From Natronosalvus amylolyticus (GTDB lineage: Archaea > Halobacteriota > Halobacteria > Halobacteriales > Natrialbaceae): DNA of 64,000 nucleotides. The translations under genes were made by a program, and so were the position numbers. The notes under the pieces are model-generated. The model did not search any database, had not been told where the DNA came from, and saw only the letters and a list, made by a program, of their open reading frames with translations. Positions 13,046 to 56,853 of the stretch are shown here, piece by piece (positions within the stretch are counted from its first letter, which is position 1; every line of letters starts with the position of its first letter). Location of the stretch: contig NZ_CP101156.1 in assembly GCF_024298845.1 (NCBI RefSeq), positions 124,001 to 188,000 on the forward strand. Reading direction: 5' to 3'.

Positions 13046-14104
13046 ATGAACGCTGGCGAGGACACTGATGGTGGGCCACTCGAGTCCGTCGTCGACGCCC
13101 AAGGACTCGAGAAGACCTACGGCGAGACCGTTGCGCTCTCGAGTGTCGCGCTGTCAGTCGACCGGGGGAGCGTGTTCGGGTTGTTGGGCCCGAACGGGGC
13201 CGGGAAGACCACACTCGTCCGTGCCCTGACGGGGACGACCGAGCTCGATAGCGGCTCGGTTCGCATTCTCGGCAGCGAACCACGTACCGTCGACCGGAAC
13301 CGGATTAGCGTCCTCCCGCAGGCGTTTTCGCCCCCCGATAGGCTCACCGCTCGCGAGCTACTGACCTACTATGCGAGCCTCTACGACGAGGCTCGCGACC
13401 CGGAGCGCGTCCTCGCTGACGTCGGTCTTGCCGACGACGGCGAGACGTGGTACGAAAATCTCTCGGGTGGGCAACAGCGTCGCGTGTGTGTCGGTGCCGC
13501 AATCATCAACGACCCCGACTTGCTCTTTCTGGACGAGCCAACGACAGGTATCGACCCCGCGGGTCGCCGTACCGTCTGGGGCCTGCTCGAGGGGCTCGCT
13601 GAGCGCGGGACGACGATCATCCTGACGACCCACGATATGGCCGAAGCCGAACACCTCGCAGACCGCGTTGGACTGCTCGCCGACGGTCGACTCGTCGCCA
13701 CCGGTACCCCATCGGCACTCATCGCCGAACACGGCGGATCGAGTCGACTGACGATCGACCTCGAGGCAGAGACCGAAGGCGGACACTCCGCGACTGCGAG
13801 TCGTGTGGACGACCCGGTTTCGGAGCCCCCTTCCCTCGAGCGAGCCAGAGAGGCGGTTGCCGACCTCGAGTATACGACGACTCGCGAGAAGGGAGCACTC
13901 GTGATACACGACCTTCCACCTGCACGCATCGGTGCTGTCGTCGACGCGCTCGATGACGCCAAGGTCGCGTACAACGGGCTCTCGTGGGCGGAACCCGACC
14001 TCGAGGACGTCTATCTCGCTGTGGCTGGAGACACCGAACGGCGCGCAACGACTCACTCAGCGACTCTCGAAGGGGGGCCGTCGACAGCGGGTGATGTCCG
14101 ATGA
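13046..14104 (+). CDS. ABC-2 type transporter ATP-binding protein
   Basis: This 352-aa ATPase has Walker A GPNGAGKTT (about 49-57), the signature LSGGQQRRV (about 139-147), Walker B LLFLDEPTTGID and the switch His in TTHDM. The C-terminal about 100 residues are the extension found in DrrA/CcmA-like exporters. It energises the membrane protein encoded just downstream (ATGA overlap). The substrate is unknown; related pairs export lipids, drugs or polysaccharide, or act in respiratory or copper systems. Confidence 0.95.
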   Translation: MNAGEDTDGGPLESVVDAQGLEKTYGETVALSSVALSVDRGSVFGLLGPNGAGKTTLVRALTGTTELDSGSVRILGSEPRTVDRNRISVLPQAFSPPDRLTARELLTYYASLYDEARDPERVLADVGLADDGETWYENLSGGQQRRVCVGAAIINDPDLLFLDEPTTGIDPAGRRTVWGLLEGLAERGTTIILTTHDMAEAEHLADRVGLLADGRLVATGTPSALIAEHGGSSRLTIDLEAETEGGHSATASRVDDPVSEPPSLERAREAVADLEYTTTREKGALVIHDLPPARIGAVVDALDDAKVAYNGLSWAEPDLEDVYLAVAGDTERRATTHSATLEGGPSTAGDVR

Positions 14105-14880
14105 GTCGATTTGGACGCATTCGAGGACAGGTGAACGCGGATTGGCGGTCGTTCGTCCGACGGCGCACGGCCGTCTTCTTCACGTTCTTTTTCCCCGTTA
14201 TCCTGATCGTCATCTTCGGCGCGCTGGTTCGGACGGACCCAACCGGCGGCGGGCTGTTCGCCGAACAACCGGCGTTTTACGTGCCGGCGTATCTCGCCGT
14301 CGTCGTGCTGTTCACCCCCTTCTCACGCCTGGGAAGTGAAGTTGCACGACACCGCGAAGGGAACCGGTTCGAAAAGCTGGCGACGACGCCGCTCTCTCGT
14401 CGGGAGTGGCTGCTCGCCCAGACGCTGGTCAACGCGCTCATCATCGGCCTCGCGAGCGTGTTGATTCTCGCCCTGGTCGTGGCACTGACGGGGGCGGAAA
14501 TCGTGTATCATCCAATCGTCGTCGCCTACATCTTCGTCGGCGTGGTCTGTTTCTGTGGCATCGGCGCGATGCTCGGGAGCTACGCAGATTCACAGGACGG
14601 GGCAATCGCCGCGAGTAACGCGCTCGGCCTGCCGCTGCTCTTTCTGTCGGAAACGTTCGTCTCGCTCGAGCAACTGCCCGGCTGGTTCGAGCCCCTGGTG
14701 AACCTCTCGCCGTTGACGTACTTCGCTCGAGGCGTCAGGGCAGCGACGTATCCGGAGGCGACGACCGGCACTACTGGTGTCGCTGGATTCGACCCCATCG
14801 TGGCGAATCTCGTGGTCCTCGCGCTGCTCGGAGTCGTGACGTTTCTGCTCGGCGCGCGGTCGATACCGCGAACAGATTAA
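14101..14880 (+). CDS. ABC-2 type transporter permease
   Basis: This 259-aa integral membrane protein has six predicted segments with the ABC-2 layout. A first helix (about 18-40) is followed by a loop with the DPTGGG insert. The typical amphipathic stretch REGNRFEKLATTPLSRREW sits before the third helix, and FVSLEQLPGWFEPLVNLSPLTY precedes the last pair. It overlaps the ATPase gene by 4 nt, so the two make one exporter, probably as a homodimer of each. Confidence 0.92.
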   Translation: MSRFGRIRGQVNADWRSFVRRRTAVFFTFFFPVILIVIFGALVRTDPTGGGLFAEQPAFYVPAYLAVVVLFTPFSRLGSEVARHREGNRFEKLATTPLSRREWLLAQTLVNALIIGLASVLILALVVALTGAEIVYHPIVVAYIFVGVVCFCGIGAMLGSYADSQDGAIAASNALGLPLLFLSETFVSLEQLPGWFEPLVNLSPLTYFARGVRAATYPEATTGTTGVAGFDPIVANLVVLALLGVVTFLLGARSIPRTD

Positions 14881-14973
14881 GGGGACTCGACTCGCCTGAT
14901 TCAACCGATATGGGGACTTCTCCGTCCGGAAGGCAGTCAGCTTTGTGATTGAACGAGTAGCGTGTCTCGAGAA

Positions 14974-15055
14974 ATAGTAGCCATTGAAACGGTTTACACA
15001 CCTACCGCGATGCCGTCTTGCGATAGGGTATGCAATGACTTTCAATGGCTACTAT
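14974..15055. repeat. 82-bp inverted-repeat element (MITE-like or structured RNA)
   Basis: Perfect 16-bp arms at 14974-14989 (ATAGTAGCCATTGAAA) and 15040-15055 bound a core that has its own near-perfect stem, CCTACCGC with GCGATAGG. The element sits between the ABC permease and a membrane-protein gene. I see no target-site duplication and no second copy in this window. A miniature inverted-repeat element, a cruciform, or a structured RNA are all possible. Confidence 0.6.
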
Positions 15056-15066
15056 AGCCCTCAAGG

Positions 15067-15080: not shown

Positions 15081-15142
15081 GTTTCAAGTTACCTCGAGGA
15101 AAGTATCAAAGCTTTTTACCTACAAATTAATTGTACGTCGAT

Positions 15143-16123
15143 ATGGTATTACACTTCGGTAAAGCAACTGGCATCTATTTCAAAACGATGCCGTTCGTGT
15201 TACTGCGGATGGGAATTGGCGTCCTGCTTGGCCTCGCTACAGTCCTGTATTTCGGGATTCTGGGATTTCTGGCATACACATTCTTTAGCGAGAGTATCTC
15301 CGGCGTTATCGCCATTATCGGCCTGCTGATCGCTCTGTTCATCTTCATCAAAGCCTGGAACCTCTTTGCCAGATACGTCCTCTACCTCGTGAAAGCGGGA
15401 CACATCGCGGTGATCGCACACATCATCGATACTGGAGAGGTGCCGTCGAATCAGATTTCCTACGGAACGGGGCAGGTCAAAGAACACTTCAAAGAGGCGA
15501 GCGCGCTCTTTGCCGTCGATATGGTCGTCAAAGCGGTCATCAAGCAGTTCAACAAACGCGTGGTCTCTTTTGCCGACCTCGTCTCGTTCGTCCCGAACCT
15601 GAAACAGATCATCCAGATCATCGCCAAAGCGATCACGATCGCGGCTTCCTACATCGACGAAGCGATCATCGCCTACATGTTCATCAGCGAGGAAGACAAC
15701 CGCTGGAAATCGGCCGGTGACGGCCTGGTGTTGTACGCCAAAACCTGGAAATCCGTTCTCGGGTCGACACTCCTGATCGTGCTCGGAATGTACGCGGTCG
15801 CGCTGGTTCTACTTCTGGCACTGAGCCCCGTCGCTGCGCTGCTCGGCGGTCTCTCGACGACGTTCGAACTCATCGGCTGGGTCGTCATCGCCGGCATATT
15901 TTTGACCATCTACTCCGGCTTCCTCAAACCGTGGGTCAAAACCGTCGTCATCACTACCTTCCTCATCGAGGCACAGGACGAAACGCCCGATTCACAGACC
16001 CGACAGTACATCGAAGAGCGTTCGGACAAGTTCAAAGAACTCCTCGAGCGCGGTGAACAAGAAGAGACCGAAACCTCCACGGAAAAACAGCCCAACGACG
16101 GCGGCCCGGCGACTCCTGCCTGA
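15143..16123 (+). CDS. Polytopic membrane protein, unknown function
   Basis: This 326-aa protein has about six hydrophobic segments (about 18-45, 55-90, 160-185, 215-240, 250-275) and a charged C-terminal tail (about 285-326) with ERSDKFKELLERGEQEE. The loops are richer in Lys than is usual for this genome. I do not recognise the family; the general layout recalls choline-transporter-like proteins, which is only a resemblance. The first ATG after the T-rich promoter is used; a TTG lies four codons upstream. Confidence 0.6.
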   Translation: MVLHFGKATGIYFKTMPFVLLRMGIGVLLGLATVLYFGILGFLAYTFFSESISGVIAIIGLLIALFIFIKAWNLFARYVLYLVKAGHIAVIAHIIDTGEVPSNQISYGTGQVKEHFKEASALFAVDMVVKAVIKQFNKRVVSFADLVSFVPNLKQIIQIIAKAITIAASYIDEAIIAYMFISEEDNRWKSAGDGLVLYAKTWKSVLGSTLLIVLGMYAVALVLLLALSPVAALLGGLSTTFELIGWVVIAGIFLTIYSGFLKPWVKTVVITTFLIEAQDETPDSQTRQYIEERSDKFKELLERGEQEETETSTEKQPNDGGPATPA

Positions 16124-38435: not shown

Positions 38436-38490
38436 TACGGAGTTATCTACCGGTCAACCACGGACCGGGGTGATTGCTGAACAGAAAGAG

Positions 38491-38550
38491 ACTGCAACTC
38501 TCTATAGGCGATACAGGACGAGAACCCCGATCCTTGCGGTCGGGGTTGTT
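38491..38550 (+). other. Hairpin segment resembling a tnpB-element 3' end
   Basis: ACTGCAACTCTCTATAGG, a short spacer, then the hairpin AACCCCGA (38523-38530)/TCGGGGTT (38540-38547) with a 9-nt loop, and TGTTGAC directly after. The order and wording resemble the right ends or omegaRNA scaffolds of haloarchaeal IS200/IS605 (IS1341-type) elements as I remember them. No tnpA or tnpB is nearby. It lies just after pyk. Confidence 0.4.
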
Positions 38551-52378: not shown

Positions 52379-52687
52379 CGGTTTCACAGTCGAGCGAGTC
52401 ACACTCGAGGTCGGGTCGGCTACCGACCTTAGTAATGAGTGACTGTCAACAGGTAGTGACTGTCTTCGAAGCCGAATCGTTTTGAAAAGGAGAGCGGAAA
52501 CAGTTTCGCACGGTTTTCTCTGGCCGGAGCCCAATGCCGCCCACCACGCCATCCACACGGGTGACCGATTCGGTAACGGAACGACGAGGGAATCCTCGAT
52601 GCACGAGAGTGCGGGTTTCTGTCGTCACTGAGTATTGGTGAGTACCGATCCAGTAGTGGCTCACCAGGGAGAGGCCAGTGAATCTTA
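52379..52687. other. 309-nt gap within the surface-protein cluster
   Basis: It lies between the leftward gene ending at 52688 and the signal peptidase unit. CGAGTGTGACTCGCTCGAC-like sequence near 52391-52411 is an imperfect palindrome. I see no gene, no relic of the family and no clear TATA box in it. Confidence 0.3.
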
Positions 52688-56647: not shown

Positions 56648-56853
56648 GCTTCGACTCTCGAAGGGGACTGGCTTGAACGTGGCGAATTCGTCAGTCATCG
56701 CCACGGTTTCTTCCGGCCGGGTGTTCGTGACACTACCGTCGCCATTGGAAACCATTGCATTTGCTATCACAAGGCGGCGCCACGGGAGTTGTGTAACTCG
56801 TTTCCCTGGTTCCGATAGTCGATGGGTCCTACAGCGGACTAATCCCCCATTCA

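Follow-up and report, generated by a model that had tools for sequence, protein, structure and literature searches.

A dispersed family of 82-bp hairpin repeats in haloarchaea, probably mobile and of the small mobile repeat type

Introduction

The REPIN and REP elements of bacteria, which go with RAYT (TnpA-REP), are folded hairpins of ~80 nt that bear GTAG and CTAC near their ends and are moved in trans. MITEs of the ERIC, Correia, and RUP types are palindromic intergenic repeats with TA at the junction, the TA being duplicated. The attC sites of integrons are long imperfect hairpins with an unpaired central spacer and an extrahelical base, in which the letters of the stem are free to vary. 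Finally, the small mobile repeats SMR-A and SMR-B of Haloquadratum walsbyi are described, in the main-text passages of Dyall-Smith et al. (2011, PMC3119063), as short, noncoding sequences with terminal inverted repeats, many copies, and no known transposase, whose "mode of mobilization is enigmatic." According to the same passages, SMR-A is ~110 bp long with a strong preference for IS605/PATE palindromes, and one SMR-B family is 80 bp.

Here we describe a family of 82-bp hairpin repeats, family A, starting from a copy in a 64,000-nt stretch of the Natronosalvus amylolyticus genome (the window). As far as those passages go, family A resembles SMRs in being short, in having terminal inverted repeats, many copies, no coding capacity, and no known transposase, and in being able to insert into other palindromic repeats (4 of 136 family A sites). 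SMRs show no target duplication, and family A may not either: 7 of 12 readable sites are exact, and at four of these seven a TA duplication of an 80-bp unit would read alike. Family A differs from SMR-A in length (82 versus ~110 bp) and apparently in placement, as its copies lie mostly in intergenic DNA and do not seem concentrated in the hairpins of other repeats; it also has a shared internal loop and covariation, neither of which the main-text passages mention. Compared by description rather than by sequence, family A appears SMR-like and distinct from SMR-A. Like REPINs, its copies are folded hairpins of ~80 nt with GTAG and CTAC toward opposite ends, whereas its halves, as read by eye, form no conserved hairpins of their own. 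With ERIC, Correia, and RUP elements it shares a palindromic form, intergenic placement, and TA at the junction; those elements duplicate the TA, whereas family A has three exact empty sites without a central TA. The likeness to attC sites (an imperfect hairpin, an unpaired spacer, an extrahelical base, and free stem letters) is one of analogy only, and no cassette was seen with family A. Five 14- to 16-letter stretches of the elements had no match in the literature text searched, and PMC3733652 has "archaea" at two places, both among its references, and neither "halo" nor "natri" anywhere.

Results

The preliminary description of the window had reported an 82-bp element with perfect 16-bp inverted ends and an inner near-perfect stem, and both its coordinates and its arms are exact. 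The element lies at 14974 to 15055 on the + strand, its orientation being set by the internal loop. The outer stem pairs the perfect 16-nt arms at 14974 to 14989 (element positions 1 to 16) and 15040 to 15055 (67 to 82), and the inner stem, also as described, pairs 14997 to 15009 (24 to 36) with 15019 to 15032 (46 to 59), leaving one bulged base at 15027 (54). Between the stems is an internal loop of 7 by 7 nt, defined with alignments A1 and A4 (see below), with CGGTTTA in the window copy (consensus CGATTTA) at 14990 to 14996 (17 to 23) and CAATGAC at 15033 to 15039 (60 to 66). The apical loop, at 15010 to 15018 (37 to 45), varies in sequence between copies. The element is flanked by AA (14972 to 14973; family consensus CT) and AG (15056 to 15057; family consensus AG). 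It sits between two + strand open reading frames, 94 nt past that at 14101 to 14880, which from its sequence we take to be a putative ABC-2 permease, and 75 nt ahead of that at 15131 to 16123. The predicted fold of a 111-nt stretch has an energy of −36.2 kcal/mol (z = −3.4) on the + strand and −51.1 kcal/mol (z = −7.3) on the − strand, and none of 200 shuffles folded as well on either strand. Perfect 16-mer pairs spaced 30 to 70 nt apart occur once in the window, while 19 of 20 Markov shuffles had none and one had two. Taken alone, this rarity within the window is moderate, and it is repetition in the genome that settles the reality of the element. A second, decayed copy of family A (38.4 bits) lies at 56735 to 56816 on the − strand, where it overlaps the end of a predicted open reading frame, and a copy is present at the matching place in G003, a sister species.

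Further copies were sought and found in abundance. In the window's own genome (G000), one arm with at most one mismatch gave 82 forward and 87 reverse matches, against none for the reversed control, and BLAST gave at least 72 matches (40 of 116 candidates scored); the exact-arm pair occurs at one place, the window copy. The length is nearly constant: of 108 distinct copies collected from the best-matching places, 105 measure 82 bp, which is too short to encode a transposase. Within the genus, family A is present in five of eight genomes and was not found in G001, G002, and G004, where a looser limit gives only short, weak matches. At the Natrialbaceae level of sampling, 85 of 125 genomes, from 22 of 29 genera, carry relatives (E at most 1e-4), and the class as a whole gives 116 carriers among 391 genomes, spread over 31 of 86 genera and four families of one order (E at most 1e-6). 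A stringent pattern matched at least 120 stretches of GTDB contigs, and the 80 loci listed all carry titles naming haloarchaea, which says nothing about absence in other groups. Family A was also found in 28 plasmid records, including those of Natrinema, Natronorubrum, Haloarcula, Halomicrobium, and Halostella. Virus-borne spread was set aside, given 0 matches in phage records (E of 1e-5) and 0 exact pattern matches in viral contigs. Plasmid copies from Halomicrobium and Haloarcula (L226, hits H32 to H36) share 91 to 97% identity over 86 to 90 bp, which suggests that transfer between genera may have been recent. Apparent tandem copies at L095 and L106 (in G105 and G066) are parted by a single N and are probably scaffold joins rather than genuine tandems.

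To describe the conserved fold, we aligned 81 of the 97 distinct 82-bp copies (alignment A1), in which 93.1% of cells are paired. Cells changed on both sides number 115, compared with 41 in shuffles, and covariation scores 0.162, compared with 0.075 for shuffled and at most 0.054 for slid alignments; the count of doubly changed pairs is a weaker control, being attained in 6 of 500 shuffles. Pair 11-72, for example, is seen as C-G, G-C, and T-A, pair 30-52 as T-A and G-C, and pair 29-53 as C-G and T-A. These alignments indicate that compensatory change preserves the stems of family A; paired changes in a palindrome can also arise by template-switch correction without selection. Wobble pairs (G.T versus A.C) are mixed, and neither strand is clearly favored. 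Conservation is at least 93% at 11 of the 14 internal-loop positions and 76 to 82% at the other three (19, 22, and 62), and the window copy carries G at position 19. The apical loop is more variable than the internal loop. As much of the outer stem is conserved as highly as the internal loop within family A, the special conservation of the loop rests on a second family. A k-turn was considered for the internal loop and dropped because the loop is symmetric.

This second hairpin family, family B, has the consensus loop ACGATTTA/AATGACT as in family A, at the same positions, in stems largely unlike those of family A. The pattern GTAACGATTTN{30,46}AATGACTNAC, which is incompatible with the family A consensus, was found in 58 of 125 family genomes and 16 of 29 genera, with 0 reversed-control matches in all of them. 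It gave 0 matches in the window's own genome, and within the genus only G003 was positive, with three. Family B loop letters are conserved by construction, as the search pattern demanded them, whereas those of family A were unselected. Alignment A3 comprises 20 of 32 family B rows (ten were dropped for another core length and two were left out by choice), and its stems covary, with a score of 0.210 compared with 0.120 shuffled and at most 0.052 slid; as weaker controls, the observed count of doubly changed pairs is attained in 18 of 500 shuffles and that of pair types in 65. In a joint alignment of 20 family A rows, 17 family B rows, and one further row (L104, entered reversed), no gap is needed across the 82 columns to align the two families, and their loops coincide. 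In this alignment (A4), pairing holds in 94.0% of cells and double changes occur in 15 of 21 pairs; covariation scores 0.525, compared with 0.204 shuffled and at most 0.122 slid. Family B lies in CT-S-[unit]-S-AG-like sites, and an identical base (G or C) stands on both sides in 25 of 32 loci (L078, L112, and L192 to L221), where 12.4 would be expected, so that family B may duplicate one base at insertion. A few members of the abundant ~81-bp ATACGG...CCGTAT hairpins near family A bear the loop ACGATTTA/AATGACT.

Empty sites were found by comparison with related DNA. The window site in G003 reads CTCGAG-AG-AGCC, with the flanks directly joined, while the window genome has CTCGAG-AA-[82]-AGCC. 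Similarly, Haloarcula hispanica plasmid pHH400 reads cttct-[82]-agacgc, whereas Haloarcula marismortui pNG700 and Haloarcula sinaiiensis pHsi388 read cttct-ggacac. Where G000 and G003 are syntenic, they share some copies, and other sites are filled in one and empty in the other; the rest of the copies compared are shared, have one or both flanks unmatched, or have flanks too diverged or rearranged to read. As read by eye, 12 empty sites could be scored: at 7 the filled site is longer by exactly the length of the element, and at 5 the difference is off by 1 to 4 nt. The exact sites are the window, G000:C5:345031, G003:C12:261665, Haloarcula, L053, L043, and G003:C45:137456, three of the seven having been compared with paralogous, not orthologous, DNA; the inexact ones are G000:C5:261820, G000:C1:1397010, G000:C1:1398703, G003:C45:60179, and L036. 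Among 136 distinct sites, four are inside an ATACGG hairpin, which belongs to another repeat family, and six more have one at most 120 bp away; these counts, taken on the ATACGG hairpins, are our check on an IS605/PATE-like preference. At three of the four insertions inside ATACGG hairpins, taking out the 82 bp restores the junction of intact paralogous copies. Family A is a dispersed family of near-constant length, present or absent at matching sites, and the copies and empty sites together bear out the earlier suggestion of a miniature mobile element.

The junction is also characteristic. Base −1 is T in 93 of 104 copies and base +1 is A in 94 of 104, while −2 is C in 69 and +2 is G in 79; the commonest flank pair is CT|AG (44 copies). 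In 200 kb of G000:C5, CTAG has a density of 0.5 per kb, compared with 3.7 expected from base composition. CT|AG is read at 44 filled sites but at none of the seven exact empty ones. At six of the seven, one of the four flanking bases differs between filled and empty states, and five of these six filled sites match CT|AG, which hints that insertion may change one flanking base, the compared DNA itself having diverged.

At canonical sites, CT[82]AG without duplication and C-TA-[80]-TA-G with TA duplication read identically, and family A could look the same if it were an ordinary MITE, that is, an 80-bp TAGT...ACTA unit moved in double-stranded form by an IS630-kind DDE transposase, with TA duplicated within CTAG and the hairpin a by-product of long terminal inverted repeats. 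The flanking T and A fit this reading, as do the TA on both sides in 77 of 104 copies and the TA at the center of four of the seven exact empty sites. However, TA is missing from the center of the other three exact sites (the window copy, G003:C12:261665, and Haloarcula), which would speak for no target duplication, although later mutation could account for single cases. Moreover, IS630 (PF13358) was found in three of eight congeners, one of which (G004) lacks family A, and was not found in the carriers G005, G006, and G007, so that within the genus it does not track family A. The conserved mismatches of the internal loop, and stems that covary round the same loop, are likewise unexpected of plain terminal repeats. 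We consider an ordinary MITE unlikely, if the best of the alternatives. No longer elements sharing family A ends were noticed among the fetched loci. A 2-bp core of the serine recombinase kind was also weighed, but it would make the net gain 80 rather than 82 and was dropped.

Candidate mobilizing enzymes were sought beside and beyond the copies. Within 1.5 kb on each side of 50 loci, no recurrent protein was found among open reading frames of at least 80 amino acids, save at one place that had been fetched twice. IS200-type Y1 (PF01797) is present in 93 of 125 family genomes and in all three congeners without family A, while of the 32 family genomes that lack it (E of 1e-5), at least 12 carry family A (12 among the 20 listed). 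Its presence does not track family A, and it was rejected as mobilizer; in this family A differs from the REPIN/RAYT system, as it does in that no such gene recurs beside the copies. IS110 (PF01548), found in one of eight congeners, was rejected on the same ground within the genus.

Family A copies are mostly intergenic and without orientation bias, and the junction preference is CT|AG-like. Across 864 kb, 34 of 39 copies are intergenic, though 81 to 87% of this DNA is predicted as coding; the 39 include orthologues in two genomes and some decayed copies, and genes were called with a purpose-made hexamer model, not taken from annotation. The intergenic copies fall in 11 convergent, 11 divergent, and 12 tandem gaps, with neither orientation dominant, which fits insertion tolerated between genes. 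These counts bear on two readings of the hairpin as RNA. In the first, which the preliminary description raised in the form of a small structured RNA, a transcript of the hairpin would be what acts or moves, whether as a small RNA or through an RNA intermediate. Stems that covary are typical of RNA, as is an internal loop that is mostly invariant and could form G.A/A.G pairs on the + strand, but an Rfam search gave no family at the gathering score and orientation is unbiased relative to neighboring predicted genes, and we find this reading decidedly doubtful. The single sub-threshold Rfam match over the element, STnc450 (E of 1.3), was taken as chance. In the second, the element would be a transcription terminator or other cis-regulatory hairpin, as its strong stem and intergenic placement might imply; this is largely refuted by equal numbers of divergent and convergent gaps, by the occurrence of both orientations, and by empty sites in relatives, is highly improbable, and was rejected, in agreement with the earlier view that the element is more than a simple terminator.

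Other hairpin repeats occur in the same DNA. A third hairpin family of 86 bp, TAGTGGCTTCCC...GGGTACTA, at times directly adjoins family A (L050, L057, L077, and G000:C5:89306-89391) and was detected in 24 of 125 genomes, among them all three congeners that lack family A. The ~81-bp ATACGG...CCGTAT hairpins are abundant in G000 and G003 (for example, G003:C45:152050-152130) and have the same two-level architecture, with a loop in these genomes mostly like ACTTTTTA/TAAGAGACG. With an E limit of 0.1, a model of them gives 88 matches in the DNA retrieved, including some at overlapping loci, and it matches the window weakly at 52619 to 52678 (E of 0.001) and 38442 to 38498 (E of 0.009), which are perhaps decayed copies. 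On the PL100 plasmid of Haloquadratum walsbyi, a 113-bp inverted-repeat unit with CTATAG near one end (L177:30509-30621) is possibly one of the published small mobile repeats.

Discussion

Our analysis favors, with a probability of about 0.6, family A being a non-autonomous mobile hairpin repeat of the "small mobile repeat" type. Under this reading, the element would be moved in trans by an enzyme encoded elsewhere than beside it. This enzyme would read the folded hairpin of a single strand by way of the internal loop, and the strand would most likely be single-stranded DNA during replication, which we prefer over an RNA form because the copies are unrelated to the direction of transcription. 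The base of the hairpin would then be joined into a short palindromic target without duplicating it. As the fold is kept while many letters change, it may be the fold that the mobilizer reads.

A broader proposal, which we put forward only tentatively and think considerably less likely to hold than to fail, is that families A and B belong to a haloarchaeal superfamily of mobile DNA whose substrate is a folded single strand. The signal would be the fixed loop ACGATTTA/AATGACT within freely varying, covarying stems, and a candidate archaeal recombinase would join it, without duplication, into short palindromes, including the loops of other hairpins. A loop common to families with largely different stems is a concrete candidate for the recognition signal, and the hypothesis is testable by separate mutation of loop and stems. 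Within one genus, carriers stand beside noncarriers, which makes the mobilizer findable. If true, such a superfamily would give archaea a counterpart to the attC recombination of integrons.
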